Positions 38,699-48,926 of a stretch of DNA of 64,000 nt are shown here, one piece after another. The stretch is from Actinopolymorpha cephalotaxi (GTDB lineage: Bacteria; Actinomycetota; Actinomycetes; Propionibacteriales; Actinopolymorphaceae). Made by a program: the position numbers and the translations under genes. The stretch lies in contig NZ_JACBZA010000001.1 in the NCBI RefSeq assembly GCF_013408535.1, positions 6,656,850-6,720,849 of the forward strand, in the 5' to 3' direction. Position 1 is the first letter of the stretch; each line of letters begins with the position of its first letter. The notes under the pieces are model-generated. The model was given only the letters and a program-made list of their open reading frames with translations. It was not told the DNA's origin and did not search any database.

Positions 38699-39688
38699 TC
38701 AACCGGCCGGTTCGTGGTGGTACATCACGTCTGTGGCGGCCCGGGTGAAACCGAGCCTCTCGTAGAGCCCGACCGCGGCGCGGTTGTCCGCCTCGACGTA
38801 CAACATCACGGTCGCCAGGCCACGGTCGCGGAGGTACGCCAGACCGGCCACGGCCAGCGCCTTGGCCAGCCCGCCGCCCTGGGCGTGCGGGGCCACCCCG
38901 AGCACGTAGATCTCGCCCGCCGGGCCGGGCTCGCCGCCGCGTATCCGCCCGGTGTGCACCTTCGTCCAGTGGAAGCCGACCAGCTCGCCGTCGCGCTCGG
39001 CGACGAAGAAGCCCGCGGGGTCGAACCACGCCGCGCCGGTCCGGGCGTCCAGGTCGGCGCGGGTCCAGCGGCCCTGCTCGGGGTGGGCGGCGAACGCGGC
39101 CGCGTTGACCGCCAGCCAGGCCTGCTCGTCGCGGCCGGGTTCGAAGGCGCGGATCGTGACCCCGGCGGGCGGCGCGATGTCCGGAAGCGGCCGGGCGCCC
39201 GGTCCGTGCAGCGGGCGGCGCATCCAGGCCAGCGCCCGGTCGGCCGTGAACCCGGTGGCCGCGGCCAGCCGGGCGGCACCCGGGTGCGGACCGTGCGCCC
39301 ACACCTGCACCGGCACCGGCCCCGCCTCGGCGACGAGCGCGTCGGCCAGTGCCCGGCCGACGCCGCGGCCGCGGTGGCCGGGGTGGACCACCAGGTCCGC
39401 GGTGGCCGCCTGCGCCGGAGCGCCGTCGGCGGTTTCGCCGGTGGGGTCCTCCGTCGTGACCGCCGGCAGGTCCAGGTGGGCGTAGCCAACGATGTCGCCG
39501 GCATCCCCGCCGGACCGGGCCAGCAGGTGGCGGGTGGCGTCGGGCACGCCGAGGAGCAGGGTCGCGCGTTCGTCGAGAGCGCGGACGCCGTCCTCGGCCG
39601 CGGCGGCCTCCACCAGAGCGTCGACAGTCGCGCGTTCGGCCGCCGAGAGGCGACCGGTGATCTTGATTTCACCCGGCGAGTTACCCAC
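38699..39688 (-). CDS. mshD: Mycothiol synthase
   Basis: Final step of mycothiol synthesis: acetylation of Cys-GlcN-inositol by acetyl-CoA. 329 aa, two tandem GNAT domains. The first carries LVVHPGHRGRGVGRALADAL; the second, active one carries EIYVLGVAPHAQGGGLAKAL, then LYVEADNRAAVGLYERLGFT, and ends in MYHHE. FHWTKVHTGRIRGG is typical of MshD. The start is GTG 39688 because TACGGT ends 6 nt upstream with no Shine-Dalgarno sequence, indicating a leaderless mRNA. Longer upstream reading is non-coding. Presence of mshD supports an actinomycete host. Confidence 0.94.
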   Translation of the reverse strand: MGNSPGEIKITGRLSAAERATVDALVEAAAAEDGVRALDERATLLLGVPDATRHLLARSGGDAGDIVGYAHLDLPAVTTEDPTGETADGAPAQAATADLVVHPGHRGRGVGRALADALVAEAGPVPVQVWAHGPHPGAARLAAATGFTADRALAWMRRPLHGPGARPLPDIAPPAGVTIRAFEPGRDEQAWLAVNAAAFAAHPEQGRWTRADLDARTGAAWFDPAGFFVAERDGELVGFHWTKVHTGRIRGGEPGPAGEIYVLGVAPHAQGGGLAKALAVAGLAYLRDRGLATVMLYVEADNRAAVGLYERLGFTRAATDVMYHHEPAG

Positions 39689-39730
39689 CCCGCTACCGTA
39701 CGGGTCACCCACCGAGAACAAGGAGTGCGC

Positions 39731-42894: not shown

Positions 42895-43659
42895 CTACGA
42901 AGCCTCGCCGGTGAGGGACCGTGCGTCGTCGGGCACCCGCGGCGAGCCGGACGAGTCGTCGTCGTCCTCGGGCACGGGGGTGACCGGCGGCGCGACGAAG
43001 CGGTAGCCGACGTTGCGGACGGTGCCGATCAGGGCTTCGTACTCCGAGCCGAGCTTGGCCCGCAGCCGGCGTACGTGCACGTCGACGGTGCGGGTGCCGC
43101 CGAAGTAGTCGTACCCCCACACCTCCTGCAGCAGCTGCTGGCGGGTGAACACCCGGCCGGGGTGCTGGGCGAGGAACTTCACCAGCTCGAACTCCTTGAA
43201 CGTGAGGTCGAGGGTGCGCCCGGCGAGCCGGGAGGTATAGGTGTCCTCGTCGATGACGAGCTCACCGCGCCGGATGACGTTGGGGTGCTCGTCCTCGACG
43301 GTGTGCAGGGCGAGCTTGCCGATCGCGACCCGCAGCCGGGCGTCCACCTCGGCCGGGCCGGCGTTGTGGACCAGGACGTCGTCCAGGCCCCAGTCTGCGT
43401 TGACGGCGGCCAGGCCGCCTTCGGTGACGACCACCAGCAGCGGAACGCTGACACCGGTGGTCCGGATGACCCTGGTCAGGCTGCGGGCCTGCACCAGGTC
43501 GCTTCGTGCGTCCACGAGTACCGCGTCAGCCGGGCCCACGTCCAGGAGGGCGCTGGCCTCGGCGGGTGCCACACGCACGTGGTGCGCGAGCAGACCGAGT
43601 GCCGGAACGATCTCCGCCGACGGCTGAAGGGCGTTCGTGAGCAGGATGATTGTGCTCAC
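42895..43659 (-). CDS. glnR: Global nitrogen regulator GlnR
   Basis: Orphan OmpR-type regulator of nitrogen assimilation, 254 aa. The receiver-like domain begins [21 protein letters not shown], a diagnostic GlnR sequence, and includes the conserved aspartate in VLVDARSDL. GlnR has no partner kinase and does not use a normal phosphorylation switch. The winged-helix DNA-binding domain shows [20 protein letters not shown], then [16 protein letters not shown] and [11 protein letters not shown]. The C-tail is acidic. GTG start with GGGGAGA upstream. It should control glutamine synthetase, ammonium and nitrate genes elsewhere in the genome. Confidence 0.93.
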
Positions 43660-43756
43660 CGGACGTCTCCCCTGATCAGTGGGGACCTGGCACTCGGGAC
43701 GGCGCTGTCGCCCAGGTCCGCCGGTTGGAGGCAGGATATCCCACGTGTCTTCCCCG

Positions 43757-44014
43757 ATGACGGTGACGGTTCGCTACTGGGCGGCCGCGAAGGAGGCCGC
43801 CGGGCTGGCCGAGGAGCAGGTGGAGGCGGGCACGCTCGCCGACGCCCTCGCGGCAGCCCGGTCACGGCACGGCGACCGGCCGCGGTTCGCGCAGGTGCTC
43901 GGCCTGTGCTCGGTGCTGATCGACGGCGACCCCGTGGGCGGCCGCGATCCGGCGACCGTACGCCTGGCCGAGGGTGCCCGGATCGAGCTGCTTCCGCCGT
44001 TCGCGGGCGGCTGA
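43757..44014 (+). CDS. MoaD/ThiS-family sulfur-carrier protein
   Basis: An 85-residue ubiquitin-like sulfur carrier. [20 protein letters not shown] opens the beta-grasp fold, and the protein ends in PPFAGG, with the C-terminal diglycine that is adenylated and thiocarboxylated. MoaD feeds molybdopterin synthase; ThiS-like roles cannot be excluded. No moaE, thiG or E1-like gene is nearby. It is divergent from glnR, as seen in related actinomycetes. ATG 43757 chosen; an in-frame GTG at 43745 is possible. Confidence 0.85.
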
Positions 44015-44052: not shown

Positions 44053-44640
44053 ATGAATGAACCACCTCGCCCCGCGCGCCGTGTCGAGGGCATGGGTGCG
44101 GCGGCGCCGAAGGGCGCGACCGCTGACGAGGAGCTGGTCCGCCGGCTGTACGCCGAGCACGGGCGAGCTCTGTTCGGCTACGTCCTGCGGCTGGTCCGCG
44201 GCGACCGGCAGCGGGCCGAGGACGTCGTACAGGAGACATTGGTGCGAGCCTGGCGGCATCCGGAGGCGCTCGACCCGGCCCGCGGCCCGGCGCGGGCGTG
44301 GCTGGTGACGGTGGCCCGCAACCTGGTCTTCGACGGGGACCGGGCCCGCCGGGCGCGACCGCCCGAGGTGGGCGAGGAGGCGCTGGACGTCGTACCCACC
44401 GGCGAGGAGGACCTCGACCGGGCGATGGTGGCATGGGAGGTCATGGAGGTGCTGGCCGAGCTCCCGCCGCACCACCGGCAGGTTCTGGTGGAGGTCTACT
44501 ACCGCGGCCACTCCGTCGCCGAGGCGGCCCGCCGGCTCGGCGTACCGCCGGGGACGGTGAAGAGCCGCACCTACTACGCCCTGCGCCAGCTGAAGCTGCT
44601 CCTGGAGGAGCGCGGCCTGACCTCGGAGGTGGCGCTGTGA
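44053..44640 (+). CDS. ECF-type RNA polymerase sigma factor
   Basis: A 195-residue group-IV sigma factor. Region 2 shows YAEHGRALFGYVLRLVRGDR and QRAEDVVQETLVRAWRHPEA (about residues 34-75), with WLVTVARNLVFDGDRARRAR following. Region 4 shows LAELPPHHRQVLVEVYYRG, HSVAEAARRLGVPPGTVKS and RTYYALRQLK. The ATG is at 44053. Its stop overlaps the GTG of the anti-sigma gene (GTGA), so the two are coupled. The regulon is unknown; autoregulation would be usual. Confidence 0.93.
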   Translation: MNEPPRPARRVEGMGAAAPKGATADEELVRRLYAEHGRALFGYVLRLVRGDRQRAEDVVQETLVRAWRHPEALDPARGPARAWLVTVARNLVFDGDRARRARPPEVGEEALDVVPTGEEDLDRAMVAWEVMEVLAELPPHHRQVLVEVYYRGHSVAEAARRLGVPPGTVKSRTYYALRQLKLLLEERGLTSEVAL

Positions 44641-45446
44641 GCGAAAGCGCCCGCACCTGCGCCGAGGTACGCGCCGCGATCGGTGCGCACGTGCTCGGGG
44701 CACTGGACGCCGAGGAGGCCGCCGCCGTCGACGCCCACCTGGCCGACTGCGCGCGGTGCCGTGCGGCGTACGACGAACTGGCCGGGCTGCCCGCGCTGCT
44801 CGGACTGGTCCGTGCGGAGGAGGCGGCGGCCGTCGGTGTGCACGAGGAGTCCGGTGGCGCCGGTGACCCGGCGGATCCCGTGGGCTCTGTGGACGACAGG
44901 GACGCCGTGGATCCCGTCGGCGACCTGGGCATGCGGCGCCTGCTGGCGCGGGTCCGGGCGGAACGCGCTCGCGAACGCCGCCGCCGGCTGGCCGGGGCGC
45001 TCGCGGCCGCCGCGGTGACCGTGGCGGTCGCCGGTGGCGGCGGGTGGGCCGTCGGGCAGGCCCTCGCGCCGTCCCGTACGCCGGTCGCCGGGCCCACCTC
45101 GACTCCCACCCCCACGCCCGCTCCCACCCCCACGGCGCACGTGACCGCGCCGCCGGTGCGCTGGTCGGCGTCGAACGCCACGCTCGCCGTCGACGGAACC
45201 GCCACCATGAACGGCGTTCCGTGGGGCACGAGGGTCGACATCGTGCTGCACGGCGTGCGGCAGGGGCAGGTGTGCTCGCTGACGGTGTACGACCGGTCCG
45301 GGCGGCGCTGGGACGGCGGAAGCTGGCGGGTGGCCTACCGCGACGGCGTGCGGTGGAGCGGCGGCATCGCCGTACCCGCGAACGAGGTGGTCAGGATCGA
45401 GATCAGGGCCACCGGCGAGCGGCCGCTGCTCACCATCGACGGCTGA
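44637..45446 (+). CDS. Zinc-type transmembrane anti-sigma factor
   Basis: Antagonist of the preceding ECF sigma factor, 269 aa. The cytosolic anti-sigma domain has C8 and H34-x3-C38-x2-C41 (HLADCARC), the zinc-binding ZAS motif. A membrane helix (LAGALAAAAVTVAVAGGGGW, about residues 120-140) is followed by a Pro/Thr linker (PTSTPTPTPAPTPTAH) and an extracellular beta-rich domain of about 95 residues with one cysteine. Release of sigma may follow thiol oxidation at the zinc site or proteolysis from outside. A thioredoxin-like gene starts 2 nt downstream. Confidence 0.9.
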   Translation: MSESARTCAEVRAAIGAHVLGALDAEEAAAVDAHLADCARCRAAYDELAGLPALLGLVRAEEAAAVGVHEESGGAGDPADPVGSVDDRDAVDPVGDLGMRRLLARVRAERARERRRRLAGALAAAAVTVAVAGGGGWAVGQALAPSRTPVAGPTSTPTPTPAPTPTAHVTAPPVRWSASNATLAVDGTATMNGVPWGTRVDIVLHGVRQGQVCSLTVYDRSGRRWDGGSWRVAYRDGVRWSGGIAVPANEVVRIEIRATGERPLLTIDG

Positions 45447-45448
45447 GC

Positions 45449-45802
45449 GTGCGGACCTCGTACCCTGCACTGGTGGACGACGACCGGCTGGACGCGGGCG
45501 TCCTGGGCGTGCCGCTCGGCGCCCGGGCGACGCTCGTGCAGTTCTCGACGGCGTTCTGCGCTCCCTGCCGGGCGACCCGGCAGGTGCTGCGGGCCGTCGC
45601 GGATACCGAGCTGGGCGTGGCGCACGTCGAGCTGGACGCGGAGTCCCACCTGGAGCTGGTCCGCCGGCTGGACGTCCGGAGCACGCCCACCGTGCTGGTG
45701 CTGGCCGCCGACGGCCGGGAGGTCACCAGGGCGAGCGGGGTGCCGCGCCGGTCCCAGGTGGTGGCCGCCGTGGACCGGGCGGCCTGCGCGCGATCGGCCT
45801 GA
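45449..45802 (+). CDS. Thioredoxin-like protein in the sigma/anti-sigma operon
   Basis: A 117-residue thioredoxin-fold protein. LVQFSTAFCAPCRATRQVLR gives the redox pair C37-A-P-C40, with Phe in place of the common Trp before it and APC instead of GPC. VRRLDVRSTPTVLVL supplies the cis-proline loop. It has no signal peptide and so is cytosolic. The GTG start lies 2 nt after the anti-sigma stop. The arrangement suggests that it reduces or reports on the anti-sigma zinc cysteines. Confidence 0.88.
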   Translation: MRTSYPALVDDDRLDAGVLGVPLGARATLVQFSTAFCAPCRATRQVLRAVADTELGVAHVELDAESHLELVRRLDVRSTPTVLVLAADGREVTRASGVPRRSQVVAAVDRAACARSA

Positions 45803-45971
45803 TTCGGGCCGAAAGGCCACGCCTACGGGCGTTCCATCCGGGTAGGAACGCGCGTGTGGAACAGCGGGTGCCGGACGGATCCGGGCGATCCCGGATGGGA
45901 ACACGCGTGGGGTCTGGGTCATGATGTCCCGAATCGTCCGGGTCACTCAGGCCGACACAAGGAGCCGGTCC
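45803..45971. other. Intergenic region with imperfect direct repeats
   Basis: Two related stretches, GGAACGCGCGTGTGG (from 45846) and GGAACACGCGTGGGG (from 45898), precede the glycosyltransferase gene. Each centres on a CGCG/GCGT core. They could be a regulator's repeated sites; nothing known was matched. Confidence 0.35.
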
Positions 45972-47378
45972 ATGGACCTCCGCCCACTGATCGGGGCGCG
46001 GCGCATCCGCCGCGGCCATCCGTCGACGCGGGGCGACCTCGCCTCGGTGATCGCGCTCGACCCGGCGGCCGCGGCCCGTACGGCCAGGCCGACGCTGCGG
46101 GTCGCGCACTTCACCGACACCTACCTCCCGCGCCGGGACGGCGTGGTGACCTCGCTGCAGTCCCTCACCGCCGCGATGTCCGAGCTCGGCCACTCGAGCC
46201 TGCTGGTGGTGCCGCGGCACCCCGACCAGCCCGCCGACGAGGAACTGCTGCGGCTGCGGTCGCTGCCGTGCGGTGTGGCGCAGTTCCGGCTGGCCGCCTG
46301 GCCGCGCAGCCGGCACGTGGAGCGGGTCGCGCACTGGCTCCCGCACGTGGTGCACGTGCACACGCCCGGACCGGTCGGCCTGCTGGGCATCTTCGCCGCG
46401 CGCCGGCTCGGGTTGCCGCTGGTGCAGACGTACCACACCGATCTTCGGGCGTACGCCGACGCGTACCGCCTGCCGACCTCGGTGATCGAGGGGGTGCTGC
46501 GCTGCTACGCCCGCCGGCTGGGCTCCCCCAAGCTGGCGCTGCCGCACGGCGGCAACCGCACCGCGCGCCGGGACGCCCTGGTCGACGCGGGCACCGGCCT
46601 GCTGCTGGCCGACGCCGACGCCGTTCTCGTACCGACCTCCGCGATCCTCACCCGCTGCAAGCTGCCGATCGACGACGACCGGATCTACGTCGCACCCACG
46701 GGTGTCTCCCTGCAGGACGTCCCGGCCGGCGCGGGCCCTGACTTTCGCCGGCGGTACGGCATCGGGCCGGACGACCCGGTCGTGCTGTTCGTCGGGCGGG
46801 TCAACCGCGAGAAGGGCATCGACCTGCTGACCGAGGCGTTCGGCCGGCTGCGCGGCCTGGTCCCCGCGGCCCGGCTGGTGCTGGTCGGCGCGGTCTACGA
46901 CTCCCGCTGGGTGCAGCGGCTGCTGGAGCAGGCCGGCATCGCCGACCGTGTGGTGCTCACCGGCCAGCTGCCGCCACCGGAGGTGGCCGCCGCGTATGCC
47001 GCGAGCGACGTGTTCGCGTTCCCCTCCCTGACCGACACGCAGGGGCTGGTGATCCAGGAGGCCGCGCTGGCCGGGCTGCCGGCGGTGCTCGCCGACGAGG
47101 CGCTTTACTCCAGCGGCCCGCTGGCGGGCGCCGGTGTGCTCGCCGGCCCGGACCCGATGCGGTACGCCGAGGCGCTGGAGGACCTCCTGACCAGTCCGGT
47201 GCGCCGGGCGCACGTGGGCGAGGAGGCGCGCCGCCGGGCCAGGCGGAACCCGCCGTCGGAGTACGCCCAGCGGATGGCGGCGATCTACGGCCAGGCGGTT
47301 CGCCGGGCGGGCTCGGCGACCCGGCTGTCGCGGGGCGAGCGGCGCGGCCCGTTCCGGTCGCGCCGGCTGATCGCCTGA
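45972..47378 (+). CDS. GT4-family mannosyltransferase-like glycosyltransferase
   Basis: A 468-residue glycosyltransferase with GT-B fold. The N-domain reads LRVAHFTDTYLPRRDGVVTS near residue 37, then VVHVHTPGPVGLLGIFAARR and VQTYHTDLRAYADAYRLP. The C-domain has VLFVGRVNREKGIDLL, LTGQLPPPEVAAAYAASDVF and FPSLTDTQGLVIQEAAL, the E-x7-E nucleotide-sugar motif. These resemble GDP-mannose-dependent alpha-mannosyltransferases acting on lipids such as phosphatidylinositol. ATG 45972 is chosen for AAGGAG 7 nt upstream; an in-frame ATG at 45921 has no RBS. The acceptor is unknown. Confidence 0.88.
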   Translation: MDLRPLIGARRIRRGHPSTRGDLASVIALDPAAAARTARPTLRVAHFTDTYLPRRDGVVTSLQSLTAAMSELGHSSLLVVPRHPDQPADEELLRLRSLPCGVAQFRLAAWPRSRHVERVAHWLPHVVHVHTPGPVGLLGIFAARRLGLPLVQTYHTDLRAYADAYRLPTSVIEGVLRCYARRLGSPKLALPHGGNRTARRDALVDAGTGLLLADADAVLVPTSAILTRCKLPIDDDRIYVAPTGVSLQDVPAGAGPDFRRRYGIGPDDPVVLFVGRVNREKGIDLLTEAFGRLRGLVPAARLVLVGAVYDSRWVQRLLEQAGIADRVVLTGQLPPPEVAAAYAASDVFAFPSLTDTQGLVIQEAALAGLPAVLADEALYSSGPLAGAGVLAGPDPMRYAEALEDLLTSPVRRAHVGEEARRRARRNPPSEYAQRMAAIYGQAVRRAGSATRLSRGERRGPFRSRRLIA

Positions 47379-47757: not shown

Positions 47758-48609
47758 ATGAGCCGTGACTCCGTCCTCGTCTCCGCCGAATGGGTGGACG
47801 AGCATCTGGACGACCCCAACATCGTTCTGGTCGAGGTCGACGAGGACACCAGCGCCTACGACAAGGGCCACATCAAGGGGGCCATCAAGCTGGACTGGCG
47901 TGAGGACCTGCAGGACAAGGTCCGGCGCGACTTCGTGGACAAGCAGCAGTTCGAGAAGCTGCTGTCGTCCCGCGGCGTCGGCAACGACCAGACCGTGATC
48001 CTCTACGGCGGCAACAACAACTGGTTCGCGGCCTACGCCTACTGGTACTTCCGCCTCTACGGCCACCAGGACGTCAAGCTGCTCGACGGTGGCCGCAAGA
48101 AGTGGGAGCTGGACAGCCGCGGGCTGGTGGAGGACGTGCCCTCGTACGCCCCCACGAAGTACGTCGCCTCCGACCCCGACCTGTCCATCCGCGCGTTCCG
48201 CGACGAGGTCGTGGACGCCATCGGCCAGCTCAACCTGGTCGACGTCCGCTCGCCCGACGAGTACTCCGGCAAGCTCCTCGCCCCGGCGCACCTTCCGCAG
48301 GAGGTCGCCCAGCGGGCCGGCCACGTGCCCACCGCGGTCAACGTGCCGTGGAGCAAGGCGGCCAACGAGGACGGCACCTTCAAGTCCGACGACGACCTGC
48401 GCGAGATCTACGGCAAGGCCGGCGTCGACTTCGGCAAGGACACCATCGCCTACTGCCGGATCGGCGAGCGCAGCTCGCACACGTGGTTCGTGCTGCACGA
48501 GCTTCTGGAGCAGCCGAACGTCAAGAACTACGACGGGAGCTGGACCGAGTACGGCTCCCTCGTGGGTGTTCCCGTTTCCCTCGGTGACCAGCCTGGAGAT
48601 GCCTCATGA
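47758..48609 (+). CDS. Thiosulfate/3-mercaptopyruvate sulfurtransferase (rhodanese)
   Basis: A two-domain rhodanese, 283 aa, cytosolic, transferring sulfur from thiosulfate or a similar donor to an acceptor thiol. The N-terminal inactive domain shows LVEVDEDTSAYDKGHIKGAI. The catalytic domain shows LVDVRSPDEYSGK and the persulfide loop YCRIGERSSHTWF, with the active cysteine near residue 232. CRIGERS is the loop of actinobacterial CysA/SseA-type sulfurtransferases. ATG with GGAGG 7 nt upstream. The DUF1416 gene overlaps its stop by 4 bp. A Cys leader peptide lies upstream. Confidence 0.93.
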   Translation: MSRDSVLVSAEWVDEHLDDPNIVLVEVDEDTSAYDKGHIKGAIKLDWREDLQDKVRRDFVDKQQFEKLLSSRGVGNDQTVILYGGNNNWFAAYAYWYFRLYGHQDVKLLDGGRKKWELDSRGLVEDVPSYAPTKYVASDPDLSIRAFRDEVVDAIGQLNLVDVRSPDEYSGKLLAPAHLPQEVAQRAGHVPTAVNVPWSKAANEDGTFKSDDDLREIYGKAGVDFGKDTIAYCRIGERSSHTWFVLHELLEQPNVKNYDGSWTEYGSLVGVPVSLGDQPGDAS

Positions 48610-48926
48610 GTGCCAACGACAGCTGCGGCGCGCCCACCGGCGGCGCCGCTCTGGCCGGGGTCAACCTGGCCAAGGAAGCAGTGATCCAGGGCGTCGTCCG
48701 CGCGGACGCCACCCCGGTGTCGGGCGCCTACGTGCGCCTGCTGGACGGGTCCGGTGAGTTCACCGCCGAGGTCCCGACCGACGCGGACGGCGTGTTCCGC
48801 TTCTTCGCCGGCCCGGGCACCTGGACGGTGCGGGCGCTCGCGCCCCGCGGTGCCACGGCGGAGGGTTCGGTGCAGGCCGAGCTCGGCAAGATCGCCGAGG
48901 TAGAGCTGGCGCTCACCCCGGCCTGA
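48606..48926 (+). CDS. DUF1416 protein partnered with the sulfurtransferase
   Basis: A 106-residue protein of the DUF1416 family, which almost always follows this type of sulfurtransferase. CGAPTGGAALAGVNLAKEAV at the N-terminus has a single conserved cysteine (C6); the rest is a transthyretin-like beta-sandwich (IQGVVRADATPVSGAYVRLL and VFRFFAGPGTWTVRALAP). Coupled by an ATGA overlap. It may accept or deliver sulfur with its partner; the role is not established. Confidence 0.9.
   Translation: MSANDSCGAPTGGAALAGVNLAKEAVIQGVVRADATPVSGAYVRLLDGSGEFTAEVPTDADGVFRFFAGPGTWTVRALAPRGATAEGSVQAELGKIAEVELALTPA

Follow-up and report, generated by a model that had tools for sequence, protein, structure and literature searches.

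A 64,000-nucleotide stretch of the Actinopolymorpha cephalotaxi genome (contig NZ_JACBZA010000001.1, positions 6,656,850 to 6,720,849; hereafter the window) carries three genes one behind the other. They encode an extracytoplasmic function (ECF) sigma factor, an anti-sigma factor of the zf-HC2 type and a protein of thioredoxin fold that contains a CAPC motif. Judged by sequence, the first two are members of the Mycobacterium tuberculosis SigL/RslA family and the third is ThiX of a conserved glnR-mshD-cysA-sseC locus. We think it rather probable that this pair, embedded in an mshD-glnR-moaD-thiX-cysA-sseC locus, governs an autoregulated envelope and redox regulon with ThiX as an output. A membrane-bound zinc anti-sigma factor with an outer domain is already the norm of the SigL/RslA family, and ThiX is a widespread gene of its locus; what our predictions add are an autoregulatory promoter, a Rieske protein gene as a target, the repeated occurrence of the SigL-type pair within the thiX/sulfur locus, and a pairing of ThiX with DUF4395. 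Earlier papers differ on the signal for SigL/RslA in M. tuberculosis: RslA is reported to give up its zinc when oxidised (PMC2877774), while cleavage by Rip1 and a requirement for SigL when iron is scarce are reported elsewhere (PMC10449499). A pair placed with a sulfur/thiol gene in a mycothiol/sulfurtransferase locus, and with a predicted Rieske target, offers a concrete, testable regulon and set of inducers in actinobacteria. A first-pass annotation had listed the same three genes in the same order, which Pfam, NCBIfam and the open reading frames bear out, as a coupled operon in a thiol-redox setting. The layout fits one transcription unit, so that the three genes may be co-transcribed, and genes for MshD, GlnR and a sulfurtransferase lie near by; the arrangement hints that genes of sulfur and redox proteins may be under the control of the switch.

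The sigma factor matches Pfam Sigma70_r2 and Sigma70_r4 and scores 241.4 bits against NCBIfam NF007227 (cut-off 202), the SigL model PRK09645. Its best sequence match in the PDB is M. tuberculosis SigL (6dv9, E 6.5e-39). The anti-sigma factor has a zf-HC2 domain with the HxxxCxxC residues H34, C38 and C41, a further cysteine, C8, and one hydrophobic helix; RslA (3hug, E 2.8e-8) is its sole PDB sequence match at E of 1 or below, and Foldseek places the domain predicted by AlphaFold2 on 3hug at 1.0-1.3 A with 44-46% identity over 50-57 columns. The motif of a zinc-binding anti-sigma factor, the single membrane helix and the outer domain that had been read from the letters thus hold up against the family profile, the hydropathy and a predicted barrel. 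The contrast that had been drawn with soluble RsrA-type systems holds as far as membership goes, since the protein reaches only 20.2 bits on TIGR03988 (cut-off 62.5), which sets aside an RsrA/SigR assignment, and since it has a membrane helix; it does not mark a novel arrangement, the protein being of the RslA type with its outer domain.

M. tuberculosis SigL-RslA (Rv0735-Rv0736) shares with the window pair the sigma and anti-sigma families, the HxxxCxxC zinc domain, the one membrane helix and a homologous outer domain. Two loci that we took for mycobacteria or near kin (L107 and L114) also have a 4-nucleotide overlap of the two genes and a TGAACC-N16-NCGT promoter. The window differs in that its pair stands in a thiX-cysA-mshD locus with thiX as the third gene; in L105, L106, L107 and L114, about 5 kb to either side of the pair yielded no ThiX. 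Its predicted zinc site is of the Cys3His type, with C8 where RslA has His25. The Cys/His/Cys/Cys spacing is like that of C11-H37-C41-C44 in RsrA of the Streptomyces SigR-RsrA system, also an ECF zinc anti-sigma factor; RsrA is soluble, in contrast to the window protein with its membrane helix and outer domain, which in sequence and fold is nearest RslA. Zinc-site residues C11 and C44 of RsrA are given in PMC2877774, along with the RslA ligands His25, His50, Cys54 and Cys57 and the release of zinc on oxidation. With its own ligands present, the window anti-sigma factor may likewise bind zinc and release it oxidatively.

We aligned 35 anti-sigma factors, mycobacterial-type relatives among them. 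Homology extends over the outer domain, and M1, H34, C38, C41 and W230 are invariant. C8 is present in 28 of the 35 rows, the window protein counted. It occurs in 16/17 ThiX-linked or same-locus rows vs 12/18 unlinked rows, the latter including a mycobacterial-type group without it; the rows are selected and related, so that C8 is at most suggestive as a marker of ThiX linkage. The AlphaFold2 model consists of a helix bundle, a long membrane helix and an eight-strand barrel with block-mean predicted local distance difference test scores of at least 92. In a VIA-align 2 search the barrel came closest to Cu,Zn superoxide dismutase (4bd4_A; Z 11.4, root-mean-square deviation 2.0 A over 94 residues), and the 50 rows listed were all superoxide dismutases, their chaperones or dismutase-like proteins. 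Foldseek E-values for the match were weak (best 8.8e-3), and a mycobacterial-type relative (L107, residues 126-234) gave a dismutase Z of 9.5, almost level with unrelated Ig-like domains. No column within the barrel holds His in 40% or more of the 35 rows, and the metal-ligand histidines of superoxide dismutase are not conserved there. The modelled outer barrel is thus a fold in common with superoxide dismutase, not an enzyme. Among the matches listed from the open PubMed Central (PMC) literature we found no superoxide-dismutase-like anti-sigma domain, a weak absence.

Ahead of the sigma gene, at 44058-44082, lies a predicted promoter of the type TGAACC-N16-NCGT, the published SigL consensus. 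The pattern TGAAC-N15..18-CGT was found upstream of the sigma gene in 9/15 ThiX-linked, 5/5 same-locus and 26/57 other loci, against dinucleotide-shuffle means of 0.30, 0.12 and 1.30, respectively; the window's own promoter is outside the 9/15, its sigma start having been placed differently. After re-alignment of the starts, and with only a spacer of 17 allowed, the counts became 10/15, 5/5 and 35/57, without a shuffle control. Among the bipartite matches in front of SigL-type genes, 51 of 52 have 17 nucleotides between TGAAC and CGT. Four of the five linked loci that lack the exact motif have near matches by eye, and the fifth, L052, has no upstream sequence. Moreover, a start codon stands in frame 9 or 10 nucleotides after the CGT in all 15 motif-bearing linked or same-locus loci. 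The conservation of this promoter before the pair argues for a sigma factor that autoregulates its own operon. Two further TGAAC-N17-CGT matches in the window are within chance, the total of three comparing with a shuffle mean of 1.4. In the open PMC literature, the matches listed that join TGAACC and sigL were unrelated.

The promoter also bears on where the genes begin. Were the sigma factor to start at the called ATG at 44053, the -35 element would fall within the gene; the in-frame ATG at 44092 follows the promoter CGT by 9 nucleotides, a position conserved in linked motif-bearing loci. Since the promoter overlaps the called start, 44092 is the probable point at which translation begins. 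Between the sigma and anti-sigma genes there is an overlap of 4 nucleotides, as in all 15 ThiX-linked loci listed. At the next junction the first-pass annotation had seen a gap of 2 nucleotides, as given by a GTG at 45449. This codon is missing in each of the three relatives compared at this point (L004, L178 and L179, the first two identical in sequence around it), whereas GTG 45473 is kept in all of them, so that a ThiX start at 45473 and a junction of 26 nucleotides are probable. Of the tight spacing described earlier, the sigma/anti-sigma overlap remains and the 2-nucleotide gap probably does not.

The third protein has a thioredoxin domain with C37-A-P-C40 (numbered from 45449), as had been noticed at the outset, and it is not an ordinary thioredoxin. 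Its score on the canonical thioredoxin model TIGR01068 is 41.8 bits (cut-off 96.8), and the usual active-site Asp and Trp are replaced by Gln and Phe. Nearly all ThiX proteins have the active site QFS[ST]AFCxPC, in the window QFSTAFCAPC. At the position of E. coli Asp26, Gln stands in 80/83 ThiX proteins and Gln or His in 83/83 (window included); at that of Trp31, before CxPC, Phe stands in 83/83. Three other thioredoxins of the genome, with WCGPC sites in their loci, exceed the curated cut-off. The place of ThiX beside the sulfurtransferase, DUF1416, GlnR and MshD genes is orthologous among the loci. The same neighbours are described for the mycobacterial lmeA-thiX-glnR-mshD locus (PMC7643837), where ThiX (Rv0816c/MSMEG_5786) is beside LmeA, GlnR and MshD and part of the thiX block is called a potential redox-stress regulon. 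The passage on that locus mentions no sigma pair, and SigL does not figure in the text of PMC7643837; in the window, the interval from GlnR to ThiX showed no LmeA gene.

ThiX occurs as a single-copy match in 107/148 genomes of the class, the window genome included. Of the 106 ThiX-positive relatives we analysed the 80 loci with the best scores, leaving aside the weakest 26 and calling genes from open frames rather than from annotations. GlnR or a sulfurtransferase gene is near in 67 loci and neither is in 13, many of them of family f20; the common block comprises MshD, GlnR, MoaD, an LmeA-type or other gene, ThiX, DUF4395, sulfurtransferase and DUF1416. A SigL-type gene lies within 2.2 kb upstream on the same strand in 9/75 ThiX loci with at least 1.7 kb of upstream sequence, and a tenth linked locus, L052, is outside this count because of its short contig. 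The linked genomes, the window's included, span six families, and the gene order recurs in a Streptosporangiales bin (L006). Three named Actinopolymorpha species and further families keep the pair at this position of the locus; the near relative Actinopolymorpha rutila has 94% identity in sigma and 92% in ThiX, and the contig of A. alba (L005) stops short of ThiX.

Viewed from the sigma factor, 67 SigL-type sites exceed the cut-off (66 examined; a contig-end fragment, G119:C433, was excluded), of which 11 are directly upstream of ThiX and five more are in the same locus with no ThiX seen. The five genomes concerned gave no ThiX match, but the assemblies are incomplete, and the contigs of L117 and L151 end too early to tell. 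In L116 and L118, which keep the pair in the locus, the stretch up to the sulfurtransferase gene yielded no ThiX. Weak sigma matches beside ThiX in L073 and L089 proved to be sigma factors outside the family (branch 2.88); they count as other loci in the promoter counts and were excluded from the second tree. On the sigma tree, the sulfur-locus label requires 6 changes vs 17.5 in shuffles, and the starred branches force only one change; the tree is thus compatible with one origin of this linkage or with several. ThiX-linked and same-locus-only labels are not clustered (4 changes vs 4.6 in shuffles). Passages of PMC13002591 and PMC8103513 yielded no thioredoxin beside SigL. In five loci of family f20 (L121, L125, L127, L129 and L138) a SigL-type sigma shows neither a zinc-motif anti-sigma factor directly downstream nor any match to an anti-sigma factor in its locus, and in the related L130, L133 and L145 an anti-sigma match lies about 1.4-1.5 kb downstream of sigma.

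Outside the operon, the strict motif has 8 sites in the window genome and none for the reversed pattern, and 39 sites against 4 reversed in six genomes of the genus. We inspected 36 of the 39, leaving out two in G149 and one in G152. A Rieske lipoprotein gene follows the motif in 6/6 Actinopolymorpha genomes, with a diverged spacer, and is our best predicted target. The window genome's copy matches PF00355, and its twin-arginine translocation and lipoprotein signals were read by eye. Rieske and SigL-type genes are adjacent or at most 0.6 kb apart in at least four genomes of three other families (G064, G079, G005 and G015). In the open PMC literature we found no SigL-Rieske connection, a weak absence. 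M. tuberculosis requires SigL in low iron, according to PMC10449499; to tie this to an iron-sulfur target is speculation on our part. Three other candidates remain leads, their sites not being conserved in the genus: that before a secreted 169-residue protein in G000 and G149 only, that before a CDP-alcohol phosphatidyltransferase gene in G000 and G152 only (the near-identical site of G150 stands before a GTP cyclohydrolase II gene), and that in G000 only before a squalene-synthase-like gene.

Among the 80 ThiX loci, 69 combine a membrane anchor on ThiX with a DUF4395 gene in the same genome, none has the anchor alone, one has DUF4395 alone and ten have neither (Fisher p 6.7e-12, ancestry uncorrected); the single anchorless ThiX with DUF4395 is just below the hydropathy limit used. 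CxxC is present in 56/56 proteins of the DUF4395 cluster, in 53 as CLGC. The pairing suggests an uncharacterised membrane thiol relay, and DUF4395 is hardly mentioned in the open PMC literature. Over the 69 anchored proteins, the 12 residues that follow the helix contain a mean of 4.0 lysines and arginines vs 1.1 before it; the count is higher after the helix in 60 and lower in 4, and this excess predicts a cytoplasmic ThiX domain. ThiX had been called periplasmic from a predicted signal peptide (PMC7643837), a view at odds with this charge distribution. The window ThiX is without an anchor, hence predicted to be soluble, and its whole genome has no DUF4395.

On the reading we favour, region 4 of sigma would at rest be bound by the zinc-carrying helix bundle at the N-terminus of the membrane-bound anti-sigma factor, as we infer from RslA. 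Release could come from zinc loss at C8/H34/C38/C41 by oxidation or zinc shortage, or from proteolysis of the anti-sigma factor after a signal at the outer beta-barrel. Free sigma would then read TGAACC-N16-CGTG-type promoters, amplify its own operon including thiX and turn on the gene of the exported Rieske iron-sulfur lipoprotein, perhaps along with further envelope genes, until co-produced anti-sigma factor closed the loop. ThiX, rising with sigma, would act in the cytoplasm as a thiol or sulfur-relay protein, in concert with the sulfur genes near by. Several points weigh against this scheme. Promoter and regulon are predictions from sequence. Six motif loci of the genus have one repeated sequence in common and look like chance. 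Beyond the genus, the Rieske promoter appears in only 5/29 further loci among the matches listed, one of the five as TGAACA and one of the 29 loci without upstream sequence; with four loci added because they adjoin a SigL-type gene, the total is 7/34, the window's own included, vs 0.16 in block shuffles. Linkage to ThiX is facultative, so that co-transcription may be partly historical. Oxidised RslA loses only about 8-fold in sigma affinity, according to PMC2877774, and the zinc motif, found in about 48% of membrane-bound class I anti-sigma factors, may be structural (PMC7406223); taken together, zinc-redox sensing need not be the trigger.

Zinc loss and proteolysis are both live as triggers. 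That the outer barrel senses an envelope signal, upon which the anti-sigma factor is degraded through site-1 cleavage and an M50 site-2 protease, its zinc site being structural, is a real possibility, if one we hold at somewhat below even; it supplies a different trigger and is compatible with an autoregulated regulon. M. tuberculosis Rip1 controls SigL through RslA (PMC10449499), the outer barrel is conserved with an invariant Trp, and the best predicted target is exported. M50 proteases are present in the window genome, but as they are in 14/14 control genomes too, their presence says little; also against this trigger, H34, C38 and C41 are invariant in 35/35 rows, and no ligand or site-1 protease is known.

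The proposal of the first-pass annotation, in which ThiX is a dedicated reductant restoring the anti-sigma zinc thiols as thioredoxin does with RsrA, is possible, with more against it than for it, and we judge it improbable. One promoter stands before the whole operon, ThiX is predicted on the cytoplasmic side with the zinc domain, the predicted site holds three cysteines (C8/C38/C41), C8 is more frequent in linked or same-locus rows (ancestry uncorrected), and the linkage recurs in six families. However, ThiX mostly occurs with no linked sigma and most SigL-type pairs with no adjacent ThiX, L116 and L118 keep the pair apparently without it, its active site is non-canonical, three other thioredoxins are at hand, and in RslA zinc loss rather than a disulfide governs sigma binding (PMC2877774). 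As ThiX is far more widespread than its linkage to a SigL-type gene, a role as output of the switch is most likely and one as resetter less likely. It is also unlikely, if less so than the resetting role, that the pair owes its place in the locus to ancestry and is functionally unconnected to ThiX. Most lineages lack the linkage, and the few label changes on the sigma tree are what an old inherited position would give; against this, the linkage is retained across well separated families, and a SigL-type promoter stands before the pair in most linked loci, exactly or as a near match. A broader history seems about as improbable as the dedicated reductant: ancestral SigL/RslA would have been a membrane-side switch for sulfur/thiol stress belonging to the thiX-cysA-mshD locus, in which an anchored, non-canonical and sigma-induced ThiX passed on thiols or sulfane sulfur together with the CxxC membrane protein DUF4395 and acted on the anti-sigma zinc thiols, with exported Rieske as the outer redox output, mycobacteria retaining sigma but later losing the linkage and Actinopolymorpha losing DUF4395 and the anchor to leave a soluble ThiX.

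Features of the sigma operon, its neighbours and the Rieske target (window positions except for the Rieske gene)
Feature	Position	Strand	Remarks
SigL-type autoregulatory promoter, predicted	44058..44084	+	TGAACC (-35), 16-nucleotide spacer, CGTGT (-10)
ECF sigma factor, SigL type, 182 residues	44092..44640	+	profile, PDB match, conserved start
Membrane-bound zinc anti-sigma factor, RslA type, 269 residues	44637..45446	+	GTG start
Anti-sigma predicted zinc site C8, H34, C38, C41	44658..44759	+	35-row alignment
Anti-sigma single transmembrane helix	44988..45044	+	hydropathy peak from residue 118
Anti-sigma extracytoplasmic domain, residues 171-269	45147..45443	+	predicted 8-strand Greek-key barrel
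ThiX, non-canonical thioredoxin-like (QFSTAFCAPC), soluble here	45473..45802	+	alternative start 45449
MoaD/ThiS-family protein	43679..44014	+	probable start near 43757; conserved neighbour upstream
GlnR regulator	42895..43659	-	conserved neighbour
MshD-like acetyltransferase	38699..39691	-	conserved neighbour; putative
Two-domain rhodanese/sulfurtransferase (SseA/CysA type)	47761..48609	+	conserved neighbour
DUF1416 (SseC) protein	48606..48926	+	conserved neighbour
Family 4 glycosyltransferase gene	45921-47378		
Exported Rieske 2Fe-2S lipoprotein gene	G000:C1:2093117-2093737 (L166, L204)		SigL-type promoter

The window genome is a single contig of 6.86 Mb, and the order of genes about the operon is GlnR and MoaD, ECF sigma, zf-HC2 anti-sigma, the CAPC protein and a glycosyltransferase. 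In Actinopolymorpha, this glycosyltransferase gene occupies the slot between thiX and the sulfurtransferase gene that many relatives fill with DUF4395.

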